Below the pieces are notes generated by a model, which saw only the letters and a list, made by a program, of their open reading frames with translations, was not told the DNA's origin and did not search any database. Source: Utricularia gibba (taxonomy: Eukaryota; Streptophyta; Magnoliopsida; Lamiales; Lentibulariaceae). Taken from it: a stretch of DNA of 64,000 nt. Positions 3,609 to 63,929 of the stretch are shown in pieces. Position 1 is the stretch's first letter. Each line of letters starts with the position of its first letter. The stretch is taken from NCBI GenBank assembly GCA_002189035.1, contig CM007992.1:3100001-3164000 (forward strand), given 5' to 3'. Made by a program: the position numbers and the translations under genes.

Positions 3609-6600
3609 TCATCTGGTTCTGGTAATCCCCTTCTTCTTGCCTTTCACATGCTTCCCCAACCTCCTGATCCTACGGCGAAGAGGGAGCGCAGGTACGCCAA
3701 AGAACTTCTTCTTCTTGCCTTTCACATGCTTCCCCAACCTCCTGATCCTACGGCGAAGAGGGAGCGCAGGTACGCCAAAGAACTTCTTCTTCTTGCCTTT
3801 CACATGCTTCCCCAACCTCCTGATCCTACGGCGAAGAGGGAGCGCAGGTACGCCAAAGAACTTCTTCTTCTTGCCTTTCACATGCTTCCCCCCTCCTGAT
3901 CCTACGGCGAAGAGGGAGCGCAGGTACGCCAAAGAACTTCTTCTTCTTGCCTTTCACATGCTTCCCCAACCTCCTGATCCTACGGCGAAGAGGGAGCGCA
4001 GGTACGCCAAAGAACTTCTTCTTCTTGCCTTTCACATGCTTCCCCAACCTCCTGATCCTACGGCGAAGAGGGAGCGCAGGTACGCCAAAGAACTTCTTCT
4101 TCTTGCCTTTCACATGCTTCCCCAACCTCCTGATCCTACGGCGAAGAGGGAGCGCAGGTACGCCAAAGAACTTCTTCTTCTTGCCTTTCACATGCTTCCC
4201 CAACCTCCTGATCCTACGGCGAAGAGGGAGCGCAGGTACGCCAAAGAACTTCTTCTTCTTGCCTCCTGATCCTACACATGCTTCCCCAACCTCCTGATCC
4301 TACGGCGAAGAGGGAGCGCAGGTACGCCAAAGAACTTCTTCTTCTTGCCTTTCACATGCTTCCCCAACCTCCTGATCCTACGGCGAAGAGGGAGCGCAGG
4401 TACGCCAAAGAACTTCTTCTTCTTGCCTTTCACATGCTTCCCCAACCTCCTGATCCTACGGCGAAGAGGGAGCGCAGGTACGCCAAAGAACTTCTTCTTC
4501 TTGCCTTTCACATGCTTCCCCAACCTCCTGATCCTACGGCGAAGAGGGAGCGCAGGTACGCCAAAGAACTTCTTCTTCTTGCCTTTCACATGCTTCCCCA
4601 ACCTCCTGATCCTACGGCGAAGAGGGAGCGCAGGTACGCCAAAGAACTTCTTCTTCTTGCCTTTCACATGCTTCCCCAACCTCCTGATCCTACGGCGAAG
4701 AGGGAGCGCAGGTACGCCAAAGAACTTCTTCTTCTTGCCTTTCACATGTTTCCCCAATCTCCTGATCCTACGGCGCAGAAGGGGCACCGGAATGATAGGT
4801 ATTCCAAAGAACTTCTTGAAGGCAGGCTTCCTCGCAGCTCAATCGAAAGAGTCGGTTCTGGGTTGTAAGAACAGGTCAGGACACTCAAGGATCAAAATGA
4901 GGATGGAGGGAGGCAACAGTTACCATATCCAAATGCGACTGAGAAGAGGTTGAAGGGAACCCATAAGCAGAAAATCGCCTGCAGGGAGAGCAGAGGATGC
5001 TTCAGTGTGAAAAGTAACCATAGTAAGTGTAAAATTTTATTTTTACTGTATGAATAAAATGTTATGATGGTTATTTTTCAAAACAATCCAAAGTGGGTGA
5101 TTTGAAAAGTAATCATTTTAAATGTAAAATTTAGTTCTTATTTTGTGAGAGATAATGTGAAGAAGATTACTTTTCAAAGTAACCGTAAATAAATTGAGTA
5201 GAACAAATGGGAGTCACCTTTGGTAAACCTATAGTTAGTGGGACGGTAAGAGCAGCAAATACTCTTTGAGATCATCATGACACGATCAGCAGTGGGATTT
5301 CCTTTTAGACCCTCCAGAAGATTCAACTCAAAGAGGCCACCGGCCAAATATGACATCAGTTGAAACCAGAAGATATAAGATCATATTCAGTGGTTTTCCG
5401 AAAACTACTATTATTTTTACACTAATGAATAATTTGGGGAAATCTCATTTTATGGAAACAAAAAAAAAAAACAAAATCTCGTTTTCTTGTGGAAAATATA
5501 ATTTTGTAAATAAACTTCACTTCATATATTTTCTATAATTTTTCTATTCATTTTCAGAAATTAATTAATTAAATTAGAAAACTTTGTAAAGAAAATTTAA
5601 TTAAAAAAACACACATCATCATTTCTGAAAATCAATAAAAATGTTCTTACCAGAAGACGTGGAGTAAAGAGATAAAATGGGTACCTCAACTGCGATCAGA
5701 GATGTCAATGCTGTCAAAACCGGAAAAATGCACAAGCTATCTGGTGTTGTCAAATCGGTGAACCATAAAATGCCACCCTCTTTGAAAGATGGCATCTTTT
5801 CAGCCATAGTTCTTACCTGAGGCGATTCAGCAAAATGGACGGCTCCATTGGTACAAGAAACATTTTCAAAGCAGAAAGTGTCAAAGGAAGGGACATGTGA
5901 TCTTACTGCAAAGAAGAGACTGGAAATAATGAGACCTGACACCAGCATTCCTTTGGAAGGGGCCAAAGGAGATACACCGTGCCTGCAGCATAATTACCAC
6001 AAACCAAAAATACTAAACATTCAAAGTGCATTTGGGATTAAAACAATTATGAAGCAGGCCATGCCAAGTACTCGGCAGCACTTTTTTGATCAGCAAATAG
6101 CAAGAATGAATATGATAGATACTGTTTAAAAAGAGCTTTCTGTTGCGCCTGGCGTTCATCCATGCCAATATCCTGCTAAACAACCAGCTGGTATGAAAAT
6201 CAGGAGTCTGAGCCAACAGCATGAATATTCGAGGCCGTACAGGAATCACAAGCAAAAAATGGCCATATCGCATAAATTATGAGGCAGCCTAAAAAAGGAC
6301 AGCATACACTATACAGCCAATTAAGCCTACTGTCCGCATGGAGAGAAAGAAGTGCAAGAATCCTACCTTGATCTCCCAGTCTTTTTGTAGTTTTTCCAGG
6401 TCTAATCTCATAAGCTGTCAAACAAAAACAGGCAATTACGAGCAGAAAAAAAAAAAAAAAACAGCAAAGAAGTGGTACAGTTCTTCTCCAATTTTCAGCA
6501 TATGAATAGAGTTATCTAGAAGTATGAATTTCAAAATATTCGTTTGAAGCCAGAATCTAGAGAATACATCTAAAAATGATGCCTAGAAACTGGTCTGAAC

Positions 6601-7644
6601 AGGACTTACAATTGATTTTGAAGTGACTTTTAGCATATGTATCGAGATTGGAAGTTGAAGTAGGCGAATAAAGATAGTTGTCAGAGCAACAGCTGCTCAC
6701 CTGAACATACACATACGATTGCTTACACTGCTAATCCATGAGCATTTTTTAAGCTCAGAAACAAAAAAGAAGAAGAATAACAAGGAGTAGATTGAAAACA
6801 TAAATACATCAAAACAACCCCCTAACATGTAGTGCCGTTAACATTATCATGAACTGAAGATACAAGGCTTTTTAAAGGTTGATTCGGACCCCTAATTGGC
6901 CAGCTTCTCAGTTTTTCAAAAAAGCAAGTTTAACCAGCGCTCAACATGTCTTTAAAAATATTAAAATTGCAATTGAATACGGCCCAAAGTGGCCCAGCAG
7001 TGGTCTTTAACAATAATGAAAAATGTAGAGCCTAAACATAAGCTAGTCTAAGAAAAGTTCAAACCAAAGATTGAAGCAAAAAACTTTCTTGAAAAAAACA
7101 GCCCAGAAATCCATATTTAGATTGTATGTTCATGCTGAAAATTGAAAAATGAACCCACCAATTGAGCCCTGCATAAACGTGAACATAATCAATCAAGTAT
7201 TGAACCGCTGCCACAGGAAAATATGAATCAGCTGCAGAAACCGCCACCTCATTCACCAACGGAGCTGCCTGTGCAGCCAACTCCGTACCCTTATATTCCA
7301 AAACATTTGCCACTTCACTCAAAACAGGAAGATCTCCAGAAGCTTCAGAAACACTCCCGCTTGAGAAATTTCTATGAAAAACAAGTCCTGACCCTAATGA
7401 GTAGGGGGATTCCCGTATCTTGAAAGAAGCTTCTAGCTCTGTGAGTGACACCAAAACTATTTATTGATCCAAATGCACTTCTATGAAGATACTGAAACGT
7501 TTCAGGATTCCTGGAAATGGGATGTCTATGCAATTCTTCGTGATCATGGCTTTCCCGGTGAAGATGAGACAAGTATGCGCCAGCCTGATGACCCTGCTGG
7601 TAGAGTAGTTTCGCTCGACAAGTAATGCTTCTTCTATACGCCAT
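3609..7644 (-). pseudogene. OXA1: OXA1-like mitochondrial insertase, copy 1 (frameshifted; last exon expanded)
   Basis: OXA1 inserts proteins into the mitochondrial inner membrane, and its basic C-terminal tail contacts the ribosome. The start is at 7644 (MAYRRS) and all copy-2 exons have counterparts, including the VRTMAEKMPSFKEGG block at 5690-5815 and the AIFC.WVP exon near 4970. Exon 1 has one extra base near 7403-7408, so the frame leaves the presequence and continues in a second frame (7059-7454). Exon 7 has one extra A near 5264-5267. The acceptor before the last exon is GAG (exon start 4837). The last exon lacks the proline-rich linker of copy 2 and runs into the 78-bp array; in frame it ends at a TAG at 4272, with the ancestral stop surviving at 3609. 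It could be transcribed but is unlikely to make normal OXA1. Confidence 0.88.
3629..4818 (-). repeat. 78-bp minisatellite, 15 copies, grown from the OXA1 C-terminal exon
   Basis: Copies anchored on TTCACATG start at 3643, 3721, 3799, 3877, 3953, 4031, 4109, 4187, 4273, 4351, 4429, 4507, 4585, 4663 and 4741. Spacing is 78 bases except 76 after copy 4 and 86 after copy 8. Most copies look identical; the outermost right copy diverges. On the minus strand each unit is 26 codons rich in Lys/Arg (11 of 26), joining the KKFFG.P motif to RRRIRRLGKHVKGK. The single-copy counterpart at 10391-10700 shows both motifs separated by a linker, so the unit arose by joining them, probably at shared AAGAAG bases, and then expanded. 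The 86-base spacer brings a minus-strand stop at 4272, leaving about six units in frame with the upstream exon. Confidence 0.95.
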
Positions 7645-10390: not shown

Positions 10391-13027
10391 TCATCTGGTT
10401 CTGCTAATCCCCTTCTTCTTGCCTTTCACATGCTTCTCCAAGCTCCTGATCCTATGGCTAAGAGGGGAGGACACACCAGGCGTTGTTTCAGTCGCAGTCG
10501 CCGTCGCTTTTCCGACATGGGGTGCCTGAGGTGTCTGTGGAGATGGCGGCAACTGAGGCATCTTGGGGAAGAATGAGAAGGCGGAGCTCTTCATGGCAGA
10601 GGGAGGGGCACTGGTATGATAGGTATGCCAAAGAACTTCTTGAAGGCAGGCTTCTTCACAGCTGAATAGGAAGAGTCGGTTCTTGGTTGTAAGAACGGGG
10701 CAGGACATTTAAGAATCAAAATGAGGTTGGAGGGAAGCAAGCAATAGTTACCATATCCATATGCGAGTGAGAAGAGGTTGGAGGGAACCCAGTAGCAGAA
10801 AATCGCCTGCAGGGAGAGCAGAGGATGCTTGAGTGTGGAAAAATTGGGTAGAACTTCTGGCTACAGCTTAGTAGAGAGAGCAAATGGCAGTCACCTTTGG
10901 GAAGCTTAGCGTTAGTGGGACGGTAAGAGCAGCAAATACTCTTGAGATCATCTTCACCGGACCAGCAGTGGGATTTCCTTCTAGACCCTCTTGAGCGTTC
11001 AACTGAAAGTGGCCACCGGCCAAATATGACATCAGTTATAACCAGCATGCTGGAATTCGTATCTAGCTTGGTTTAGTTAATCAGATTCTTTGTGCAGAAG
11101 TCAGGAAGATACGCAGGAAATAGAGAAAATGGGTACCTCAACTGTGATCAGAAATGTCAATGCTGTCAAAACAGGAAAAATGTACAAGCTATCTGGTGTT
11201 GTCAAATCGGTGAACCATAAAATGCCACCCTCTTTGAAAGATGGCATCTTTTCAGCCATAGTTCTTATCTGTATGCAGCCCAAGAAGGCGATTCAGCAAA
11301 ATGGACGACTCCATTGGTACAAGAAACATTTTCAAAGCAGAACGTGTCAATGGAAGGGAAATGCCATCTTACTGCAAAGAAGAAACTGCAAAAAATGGGA
11401 CCCGACACCAGAATTCCTTTGAAAGGGGCCAAAGGAGTTACACCGTGCCTGCAACATAATTACCACAAACCAAAAATACTAAACATTCAAAGTACATTAG
11501 GAATTAAAAAAATAATGAAGTAGGCCTTGTCAAATACTCGGCAGCAGTTTTTTGATTAGTAAGTAGCAAGAATAAACATGATACATACTGTTTATAAAGA
11601 GCTTTCACTTGTGCCTGGCGTTCATACATGCCAATACCCTGTTAAACAAGAAGCTGGTATGAAAATCAGGAGTCTGAGCCAACAGGATGAATATTCTAGG
11701 TCATACAGGAATCACAAGCAAACAATGGCCATATCACATAAATTATGAGGCAGCCTAAAAAGGACAACATACACTATACAGCCAAATAAGCCTATTGTCC
11801 GCATGGAGAGAAAGAAGTGCAAGAATCCTACCTTGATCTCCCAGTCTTGTTGTAGTTTTTCCAGGTCTGATCTCATAAGCTGTGAAATAGAAACAGGCAA
11901 TTATGAGCAGAAAAAAAAAAAAAACAGCCAAGAAGTGGTGCAGTTCTTCTCCAGTTGTCAGGATATGAATAGAATTGTCTAGAAGTATGGACTTCAAAAT
12001 TTTTGTTTGAAGCCAGAATCTAGAGAATGCATTTGAAAATGATGCTAGAAACTGGTCTGAACATGACTTACAGTTAATTTTGAAGTGACTTTTAGCATAT
12101 GTATCGAGATTGGAAGTTGAAGCAGGCGAATAAAGATAGTTGTCAGAGCAACAGCTGCCCACCTGAACACATATGCGATTGCTTACACTGCTAATCCCTA
12201 AGCATCTTTTAAACACAGAAACAATAGCAAGAAGTAGATTGAAAATACAAGGCTTTTCAGGCGTTGATTCGGACCCCTAATTGGCCAGCGTCTCAGTTTT
12301 TCAAAAAAGCAACTTTAATCAGCGATCAGCATGTCTTTAAAAATATTAAAATTGCAATTGATTACGGCCCAAAGTGGCCCAACAGTGGTCTTAACGATAA
12401 TGAAAAATGAAGAGCCTAAACATAAGCTGGTCTAAGAAAAGTTCAAACCAAAGACTGAAGCAAGAAACTTTCTTGAAAAAAACAGCCCAGAAATCCATAT
12501 TTAGATTGCATGCTCATGCTGAAAATTGAAACATGAACCCACCAATTGAGTCCTGCATAAACGTGAACATAATCAATCAAGTATTGAAGCGCTGCCACAG
12601 GAAAATATGAATCGGCTGCAGAAACCGCCACCTCATTCACCAATGGAGCTGCCTGTGCAGCCAACTCCGTACCCTTATCTTCCAAAACATTCGCCACATC
12701 ATTCAAAACAGAAAGATCTCCAGAAGCTTCAGAAACACTCCCGCTTGAGAAATTTCTATGAAAAAAATGTCCTGACCCTAATGAGTAAGGGATTCCCCTA
12801 TCTTGAAAGAAGCCTCTAGCTCTGTGGGTGACACCAAAACTATTTATTGATCCAAATGCACTTCTATGAAAATACTGAAACGTTTCAGGATTCCTAGAAA
12901 TGGGATGTCTATGCAATTCTTCCTGATCATGGGTTTCCCGGTGAAGATGAGACAAGTAAGCGCCAGCCTGATGACCCTGCTGATAGAGTAGTTTCGCTCG
13001 ACAAGTAATGCTTCTTCTATACGCCAT
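10391..13027 (-). CDS. OXA1: OXA1-like mitochondrial inner-membrane insertase, copy 2 (one-base frameshift in the C-tail)
   Basis: YidC/Oxa1/Alb3 insertase that places proteins in the mitochondrial inner membrane. Exons: 12543-13027, 12072-12162, 11832-11879, 11589-11638, 11373-11448, 11137-11268, 10895-11002, 10752-10806 and a last exon starting at 10661; all borders and phases agree. Exon 1 encodes an Arg/Ser-rich presequence from MAYRRS. Core signatures are RTMAEKMPSFKEGG, LWFTDLTTPDSLYIFPVLTA, LNAQEGLEGNPTAG and AIFCYWVPSNLFSLAYG. As written, the last exon stops at 10591 (371 residues), just after KKFFGIP. The usual basic tail, ending KHVKGKKKGISRTR, follows in another frame to a stop at 10391. 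One extra base in the C-run near 10605 would give about 438 residues, close to the ~430 of Arabidopsis OXA1. It is functional if that is an assembly error, otherwise tail-truncated. Confidence 0.87.
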
Positions 13028-31872: not shown

Positions 31873-34800
31873 TTAACCATTGAGGTCCCTCGGATGACCA
31901 GCAATCTCTCCTCCATCATGATGTGGTAAGTTTACTTGATGTGCAGTAGTATCTTGTACATCATTCTGTGGTAAAGTATTCTGCTGAACACCAATATCAT
32001 GTGCATCATTCTGTGGTAAGTTTACTTGATGTGCAGTAGTATCTTGTACATCATTCTGTGGTAAAGTATTCTGCTGAACACCAATATCATGTGCATCATT
32101 CTGTGGTAAGTTTCCTTGATGCGGGATAATATCTGGTGCGCCATTGTGTTGTAAGTTCCCCTGATGAGCATCAATTTCCTGTGCATTATTCTGTGGCAAG
32201 TTTCCATGATGCAGGATAATATCTGGTGCACCAATGTGTTGTAAGTTCCCCTGATGAGCATCAATTTCTTGTGTATCATTTTGTGGTAAGTTTCCATGAT
32301 GCAGGATAATACCTGGTGCACCATTGTGTTGTAAGTTGCCCTGATGAGCATCAATTTCTTGTGCATCATTCTGTGGCTCGTCTCGATGTTGATATTTGAG
32401 GATTACTGTGTGCAAAACAATAAAGAAAACAGCGGTTGCTCCTACAATTGCAAACAACCCCCAAAAGCTCTCGAGACCAAGGCTGCTGCTGGGATAGGGT
32501 GAGCTAGTTTGGCATACACGTGAATCCCCTAACCATTTGTTTGTTATTTGAAACATCAAGTCGCTCTCAGTCACATTCAATACTTTCTTTGAAATGTCAG
32601 AAACCAAAGGAGACCCAGTTGGAAACACCTGCAATCATGTTTTGTATAAGAAAAGGCAAGTAGAATGTGAAGTGGAAGCTTCCTTTAATCAAAGGGGAGG
32701 ACTTACAAAACCAAAGCCATCTGTTTTGTAGATGGGACCTATCATTGTGTATTGAGAACAGTATTCAGATAAAAAGAGGTTTAGATATGGAATCTCATCA
32801 AAGGCTGCTGCAATCTCTCCATTTCCACTTCCATTTGTGAATAAATCATGAAGCTCCTGTGGGCTGCTATATGGTAACATTCTGGATGGATCAAAGTTCA
32901 TGTTCAAAAGAAATCCCTTGATAAATGAGGGCTTTGGATAACCAACATATGCATTGGTCTGAAGAAGTGTCTTCACATCTTGAACCGAAGGTTGTAATTG
33001 TTGAATTGTTAAAAGTGAAGCTAAGCTAGCTGTATAACTTTGTGTCAGAATAAGAACAACAAAAAACCAGATGATCATAAGTATTCTTGCAAAGTTATTT
33101 TTCAGATTCTCCCCTACAAAAAAAAACATTAGAAAAAAATAAGAAAATGTCAAACACTCATTTCTTTAAAAGTGATGTCTATTCTGTATTTCAACTTACT
33201 TTGAGCAAATACCATAGTTGAAAAAGAGTACCACAATATCATTCCTATTTGGTGATGGAGTGTACCCCTAAATTCAGTTCCAGTCTCCTTGTGCTCAAGA
33301 ATCCAAATCACAACAGCAATAATTACAAAAGACCAAAAACTTGTTAGCCAAAGTTTCCATGTCAGTGGCTTCAGAAATACCCATGCTTTGTGATTATTTG
33401 GTACATATGGAACAACCATGGAAATGCCAGATTCTATATAGGGGAGTGAGAAATCAACAAATTGTGATCGATTTGCCATTATTGTGACATCACCAATTAA
33501 TGCATCATAATTCTGTACATTTTCCAAAAATAAATGAGTTTAGGATAACTTCAAATAAAAAATGTACATAAGTTGTGAAAGTACTTACTCCAAGATATAT
33601 TTGATGGACCATGTCATTATATGTACCAGCACTGCTTCGATCTTGTGTTACAAAAGGGATGTAATCATATGGTAAGCCATAGGATAATTCTGCTACCACT
33701 GTTTCAAAAACATCAATACTGAATCCTTGTACTTTTGTTGAATTATCCTCATTCCAAGTAACATAGACAAATTTAGAGACTCGATCTTGTACTGGGACCA
33801 AAATCCGAAGTTTTTTTTCATTTACAGGTAACACCCAACCTTTGGGTGGAGAGGTTCTATCACCAGGCCATATAATAGGTTTAAAGTTATCCTTTGAGTT
33901 GGAGCTTCGGATAGTGGAATTGACTTCTGTGACAATCCCATATTGTTCAATCCAATATCCCACTTCTCTAGCTCTTGAACCAACCACATTAAGCACCTCG
34001 TAAGGTGGAGACTGAAGTTGTTGATTAAACAGTTTAAAGGTTCCTGCTAAGCCTTGAAATGTTGTATTAGATAATGCATGAATAAGATTTAGCCCCATAT
34101 CAGACACCCCAAAGCTTTCAAGATCAGTTGGGATACTTGAAGCATTTGGAATTAAGAAAGTGGCAGTTCCAAAAGATCTGGATGCACTTTCTACTGCCAT
34201 GGCTAGTGCAGTTATTGTATCATATGCCCATAGTCCGAAAATCGTGAGCTCTGAGATTCCATTGTTCAACAAAAGCTGCTTTTTGTAATGCTTTTGAAAT
34301 TGCTTAAGCTTTACTGTTTTTTGCACATGAGGCCTTACTCCTAAGGCTCCTTCCATAGATTTCAAGATACTTGGATTCAAAGAATCAAGTTCATTTGCCA
34401 TTGCATTTGTAATAATCCATGCATAATCCTTGCTCATCATCCCAAGTTCCTTAGCCTTCATGAAAAAGCGAGATCCAAGAGACTTCACCATATGAACAAT
34501 AAAAACTCTCGTATGCATAGACATTAGCTTATAAAGCTCAGCACTAATCTGCTCATCAGTGGCTGATGAGGGAATTGCGCTTCTGTAAGGAATACGCACA
34601 TATTTTTGTTCCAAGGCATCACTTAAAGAAGAAAGAATTCCTTGTCCAAACTCATCATCAGCATAAATCAATGTAACTTCCCTCCATCCAAAAGCTTCAA
34701 CTATTGCACTTATAGCATCTACTTGAGAGGAGTCACTCAGAGTAGTTCTAAAAAAGTATGGACTTTTAATTGATGCGAGCGATGGACTTGTAGCAGTAAA

Positions 34801-63389: not shown

Positions 63390-63929
63390 CAAGCTGGGCA
63401 CGGGTCCGACTCGACCCGCCGAGTAAAAAATGAAATGTCTGACTCGGTGGACACGGGTTGACGAGTTGGACAGCTTGACTCGTCCCAGGTCACGAGTTGA
63501 CACTACAATGATATGTTTACGGTGCCTGGAGAATATTGAAATCAGTATCTTCTAGACATTACAATTGCATGTTTGCGATACCTAGAGAATATTGAAGCAA
63601 CTGTCTTCCAAGCGCTACAATTATATGTTTGCGCAGTCTTAAGAACAATGAAGCTAATGTCTTCCAAGCACTATAATTGTATGTTTGCGATGACTGAAGA
63701 ACATTGAAGCCAATGTCTTCCAAATATTGTAATGGTATGTTTGCGATGCCTGAAAATATTGAAACTAGTGTTTTATAGAACTATTTTGGTTGACCCGCCG
63801 GGTCAACTTGTACCCATGCACAATCAACCCGTCCCGTACCCATTTTTGAAAATTACGGGTAACGGGTCGGACCCGTCACGAGTCAACCCACCGGATACAC
63901 GGGTCAACCCATATCTATACCCAGCTCTA
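63390..63929. mobile_element. Non-autonomous DNA transposon (hAT-like) with TIRs and 8-9 bp target-site duplication
   Basis: The element begins CAAGCTGGGCACGGGT and ends ACCCAGCTCTA, so the ends are inverted repeats (AGCTGGG at both termini, with GGGT/ACCC-rich subterminal sequence on each side). CCTACTATT flanks it at 63381-63389 and 63930-63938, an 8-9 base duplication fitting hAT (8) or possibly Mutator-like (9) insertion. It has no transposase ORF. Its core is a five-unit tandem repeat. GGGTCGGACCCG-type subterminal repeats are common in plant hAT MITEs. Confidence 0.85.
63500..63778 (+). repeat. 56-bp tandem repeat, about five copies, inside the transposon
   Basis: Units anchored on ACAATNNTATGTTTNCG start near 63505, 63561, 63617, 63673 and 63729, a regular 56-base period, each carrying GAANATTGAA and GTCTTCCAA-like sequence with several mismatches between units. 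It lies wholly between the GC-rich subterminal regions of the element. Confidence 0.88.

Follow-up and report, generated by a model that had tools for sequence, protein, structure and literature searches.

The closest described relatives of the locus reported here are the OXA1/OXA1L proteins of the YidC/Oxa1/Alb3 family (PF02096). The C-terminal domain of yeast Oxa1 binds the ribosome (PMC10572626), and a plant review describes Oxa1, the mitochondrial family, with a C-terminal ribosome-binding region (PMC5855863). In the window, by which we mean the whole 64,000-nucleotide stretch of Utricularia gibba DNA that was analyzed, two copies of a gene, termed A and B, are OXA1 by sequence, and a short unit that is repeated in copy B comes from the basic C-terminal tail of this protein. 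Copy B departs from the known proteins in being broken and in having a tail that is both shortened and repeated.

Minisatellites (VNTRs) in genes and pseudogenes offer the second point of comparison. The array in copy B shares with them a unit of tens of base pairs, a near-identical core, a diverged edge, and indels of the slippage type. It differs in that a non-repeated parent exon survives at a distance of about 6 kb, and the ancestral tail can be seen in a third remnant of the gene. Because of these two survivals, the steps that gave birth to the array can be read: parent exon, edge unit, and remnant make deletion, tandem duplication, and expansion legible one by one. The birth of the array is an ordinary kind of event that happens to be neatly preserved. 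As a protein story the locus probably has no importance, but it serves well as an example of how a repeat is born, and it illustrates that an in-frame repeat inside a pseudogene can mimic coding innovation. Literature searches found no published report of this array. We consider it very probable that the array is an exon-derived minisatellite in an OXA1 pseudogene, most likely without a protein function.

The array and its reading frame

The sequence-only reading had described 15 near-identical 78-bp units at this locus, and it was right in this respect. The repeat finder TRF reports a 78-bp unit in 14.7 copies on the minus strand at 3630-4779 (97% matches, score 2193), and splitting the array at a fixed word yields 15 unit starts, a copy count that describes one assembly. 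These values lie within the usual definition of a minisatellite, in which many units of about 10-100 bp follow one another head to tail. The relevant features are as follows.

3630-4779, minus strand: 78-bp tandem array within exon 9 (the last) of OXA1 copy B; 15 unit starts
4728-4814, minus strand: edge unit of 87 bp (29 codons, from AAGTTCTTTGG to AAGAAG), in which the parent exon is still recognizable
4252-4337, minus strand: 86-bp unit whose 8 additional bp repeat a stretch present elsewhere in the unit; source of a frameshift and a stop
3864-3939, minus strand: 76-bp unit with 2 bases missing
4272-4274, minus strand: TAG closing the basic repeat frame

Twelve of the 15 units are identical, or 12 of 14 when only core units are counted. 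Each of the two remaining core units carries a single indel event, accompanied in one of them by an additional mismatch at the indel. The edge unit, which is the exon-proximal one, is 9 bp longer than a core unit and has diverged from the core.

When the whole ~100-Mb genome was searched with the array, no second copy of it was found; besides the array itself, only both ends of exon 9 of copy A matched, about 6 kb away. An 80-kb sample of the genome contained one array with a period of at least 20 bp and at least three copies (43 bp in 6.1 copies). By this count, arrays as long as the present one look uncommon in the genome, although the sample is small. The near-perfect identity of the units could be taken to mean that the array, or its copy number, is an artefact of assembly. 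However, the array has internal landmarks in its diverged edge unit and its two units with indels, and it is just 1.15 kb long, which makes such an error improbable.

The minus-strand peptide encoded by one unit, KFFGVPALPLRRRIRRLGKHVKGKKK, has 26 residues, of which 11 are Lys or Arg and none Asp or Glu, in agreement with the earlier description of it as a basic peptide. Also as described earlier, the frame of copy B exon 9 is open from position 4837 to the TAG at 4272-4274, a span that takes in the edge unit and six core units. The frame ends there because the 8 additional bp of the 86-bp unit shift the frame. The 76-bp unit shifts it again, and therefore the last units are back in the basic frame. 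An open frame was rejected as proof of coding in this array. The period is a multiple of three, and of the unit's six frames three lack stops, including two plus-strand frames; after shuffling, units typically show one to three open frames as well. An open array frame therefore does not argue for use.

Two OXA1 copies and a third remnant

The array lies in the second of two collinear genes, both on the minus strand, whose exons are listed below.

10391-13027, minus strand: OXA1 copy A, parent-like, with nine exons
13027-12543, 12162-12072, 11879-11832, 11638-11589, 11448-11373, minus strand: copy A exons 1-5
11268-11137, 11002-10895, 10806-10752, 10661-10391, minus strand: copy A exons 6-9
10391-10661, minus strand: copy A last exon; tail unrearranged, frame slipped by one base at the C run 10605-10608
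4924-7644, minus strand: copy B exons 1-8, apparent pseudogene, collinear with copy A
7644-7159, 6700-6610, 6414-6367, 6172-6123, minus strand: copy B exons 1-4
5982-5907, 5816-5685, 5326-5218, 4978-4924, minus strand: copy B exons 5-8
3609-4837, minus strand: copy B exon 9, array-bearing, with a GAG acceptor in place of CAG
6697-6699, minus strand: nonsense codon (TGG to TGA) at the start of copy B exon 2
7404-7408, minus strand: C run with one extra base, a frameshift in copy B exon 1
5265-5267, minus strand: A run with one extra base, a frameshift in copy B exon 7

The assignment of the parent gene to OXA1, which the sequence-only reading had made from the letters, is confirmed by profile and structure-database matches. 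The product of copy A matches PF02096 (60KD_IMP domain) with 82.3 bits over profile positions 1-162 of 163. Among solved proteins its best match is human mitochondrial OXA1L (135 bits, E 3e-38), and YidC proteins reach at most 62 bits. By these matches, copy A is a mitochondrial OXA1 gene, a member of the YidC/Oxa1/Alb3 insertases. Its splice sites are ordinary, and all of its exons are open save for the slip in the last one. This exon, which had been recognized earlier as related to the repeat, reads KKFFGIPIIPVPLPLP* in the gene frame, and the conserved tail resumes in the next frame. A C missing from the run at 10605-10608 would account for the slip. As assembled, the slip would cut the basic tail from copy A; it is a possible assembly error. 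Since the tail is intact in this exon and recurs in a remnant of the gene on contig C413, copy A was either disabled recently or contains such an error.

Protein searches of the whole genome find OXA1 matches only in copies A and B and in this remnant (C413:1213385-1214039); more distant members of the PF02096 family were found on contigs C505 and C451 by profile search. The remnant is eroded, has lost most of the middle exons, and adjoins a tRNA-Ala-like sequence. It keeps part of the unrearranged tail, AFSFFPQIPQLPPSPQTP..., and for this reason the tail of copy A, rather than that of copy B, is taken to be ancestral.

Copies A and B align across the whole gene and beyond, at ~84-93% identity by segment, and their introns differ by 6-19%. 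An intact tRNA-Ala stands beside copy A (13792), and a damaged tRNA-like sequence occupies the matching place beside copy B (~8340). All eight introns of copy B are in register with those of copy A, with introns 6 and 7 enlarged. The enlargements of introns 7 and 6 are due to insertions at 5020-5200 and 5380-5670, respectively, which contain inverted repeats and may be small transposable elements.

The earlier interpretation proposed that the array, if transcribed, would encode a multiplied ribosome-binding tail. It did not report the nonsense codon, the two frameshifts, or the two weakened acceptors of copy B, which leave an extended tail on a working OXA1 with little in its favor. Its placement of the exon start at 4837 stands, but the acceptor there reads ATTGAG in copy B instead of ATTCAG as in copy A; the acceptors of exons 7 and 9 are both GAG in copy B and both CAG in copy A. 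Copy B lacks an intact reading frame, owing to the exon 2 TGA and to one frameshift each in exons 1 and 7, and combines retained introns with disabling lesions, as duplicated pseudogenes do. Even when read past its lesions, its insertase core scores 92 bits against human OXA1L, compared with 135 bits for copy A. It has also lost residues common to copy A and OXA1L, namely the P of SGPIF, the Y of FCYW, and the S of PSNLFS. Between copies A and B, Ka/Ks is 0.87 for exons 2-8, 0.37 for exon 1, and 0.65 for the whole gene (95% bootstrap 0.41-1.16). With the remnant as outgroup, the part of exon 1 that the three share shows eight changes in A and eight in B, so faster decay of copy B is not seen in that part; this result and the exon 1 Ka/Ks weigh against the pseudogene reading.

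For copy B to be a working OXA1 with its ribosome-binding tail multiplied about sevenfold (the edge unit and six core units), one could point to exon 9, which stays in frame from acceptor to TAG across seven basic units, and to the ribosome binding described for the yeast and plant proteins. Moreover, every frameshift alters a homopolymer run by one base, a kind of change that assembled copy A also has once, and the frameshifts could be errors. The nonsense codon and the acceptor changes are not products of homopolymer miscounting, however: the TGA is a base change that leaves run length untouched. Together with the lost residues and an insertase-core Ka/Ks of about 0.9, they point to a broken body of copy B, which makes a working OXA1 with a multiplied tail highly unlikely. 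Less probable still is that transcription of copy B's array exon, by itself or through altered splicing, yields a basic repeat peptide that binds mitochondrial or other ribosomes; the basic composition of the repeat tail is seen, and ribosome binding by it is putative. By sequence, copy B looks like a pseudogene, and the array within it like a minisatellite born from an exon, which the sequence-only reading had offered as its second option.

Birth and age of the array

The array sits in the last exon of copy B, connected to the other OXA1 exons as first proposed, and sequence from both ends of that exon makes up its unit, which joins two motifs that are separate in copy A. Alignment of the copy A exon with the edge unit of copy B indicates that ~140 bp are missing in B between KFFGIPIIPVP and RRIR. 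In copy A, the ends of the missing segment share an imperfect direct repeat (GTGCCCCTCCCTCT--GCCAT and GTGTCCTCCCCTCTTAGCCAT) with a local score of 27, a value reached by 11 of 1000 shuffles. Because of this shared repeat, the deletion was likely repeat-mediated.

Earlier, a single event at shared AAGAAG bases had been held to fuse the two motifs before amplification. The outline of deletion followed by amplification stands, but two junctions had been merged into one. The unit-to-unit join, KGKKK/KFFG, sits in AAG repeats found at both ends of the exon segment; judged from these repeats, it is the junction of a tandem duplication, separate from the deletion junction at KFFG.P/RRIR. Core and edge units are a further 9 bp and several substitutions apart, and the core form is the one that was amplified.

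From these comparisons we infer an order of events. A tandem duplication of ~5 kb would have copied nuclear OXA1 together with the neighboring tRNA-Ala, after which copy B would have lost its function. Its last exon would then have suffered the internal ~140-bp deletion between the KKFFG.P and RRIR...KGKKK motifs. Tandem duplication within the AAG repeats would have turned the shortened exon segment into a repeat, and slippage or unequal exchange may have expanded and homogenized it to about 15 copies.

The expansion is recent, as had been argued from the near-identity of the units. Apart from a single mismatch where the 86-bp unit has its indel, core units carry no substitutions, compared with differences of 6-19% between the introns of copies A and B. 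Because of this disparity, the last round of expansion, or of homogenization by conversion, is placed long after the A/B duplication. If conversion homogenized the units, amplification may have begun earlier. The strong homogeneity of the units might also be expected of a non-coding element under selection, such as a regulatory or recombination-prone repeat, but the genome has no second copy of the array and recent expansion accounts for its uniformity, which leaves this suggestion with scarcely any probability.

Two other tandem arrays were noted in the window. One, at 31914-32376, also has an open frame, with a period of 45/90 bp, ~5-10 copies, and HQGNLPQND-like units, and it falls in a 253-aa minus-strand open reading frame (31873-32634). 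By eye, the adjoining open reading frame (32689-33153) resembles a portion of a glutamate-receptor-like channel. The other array, at 63500-63763, consists of 4.7 copies of a 56-bp unit.
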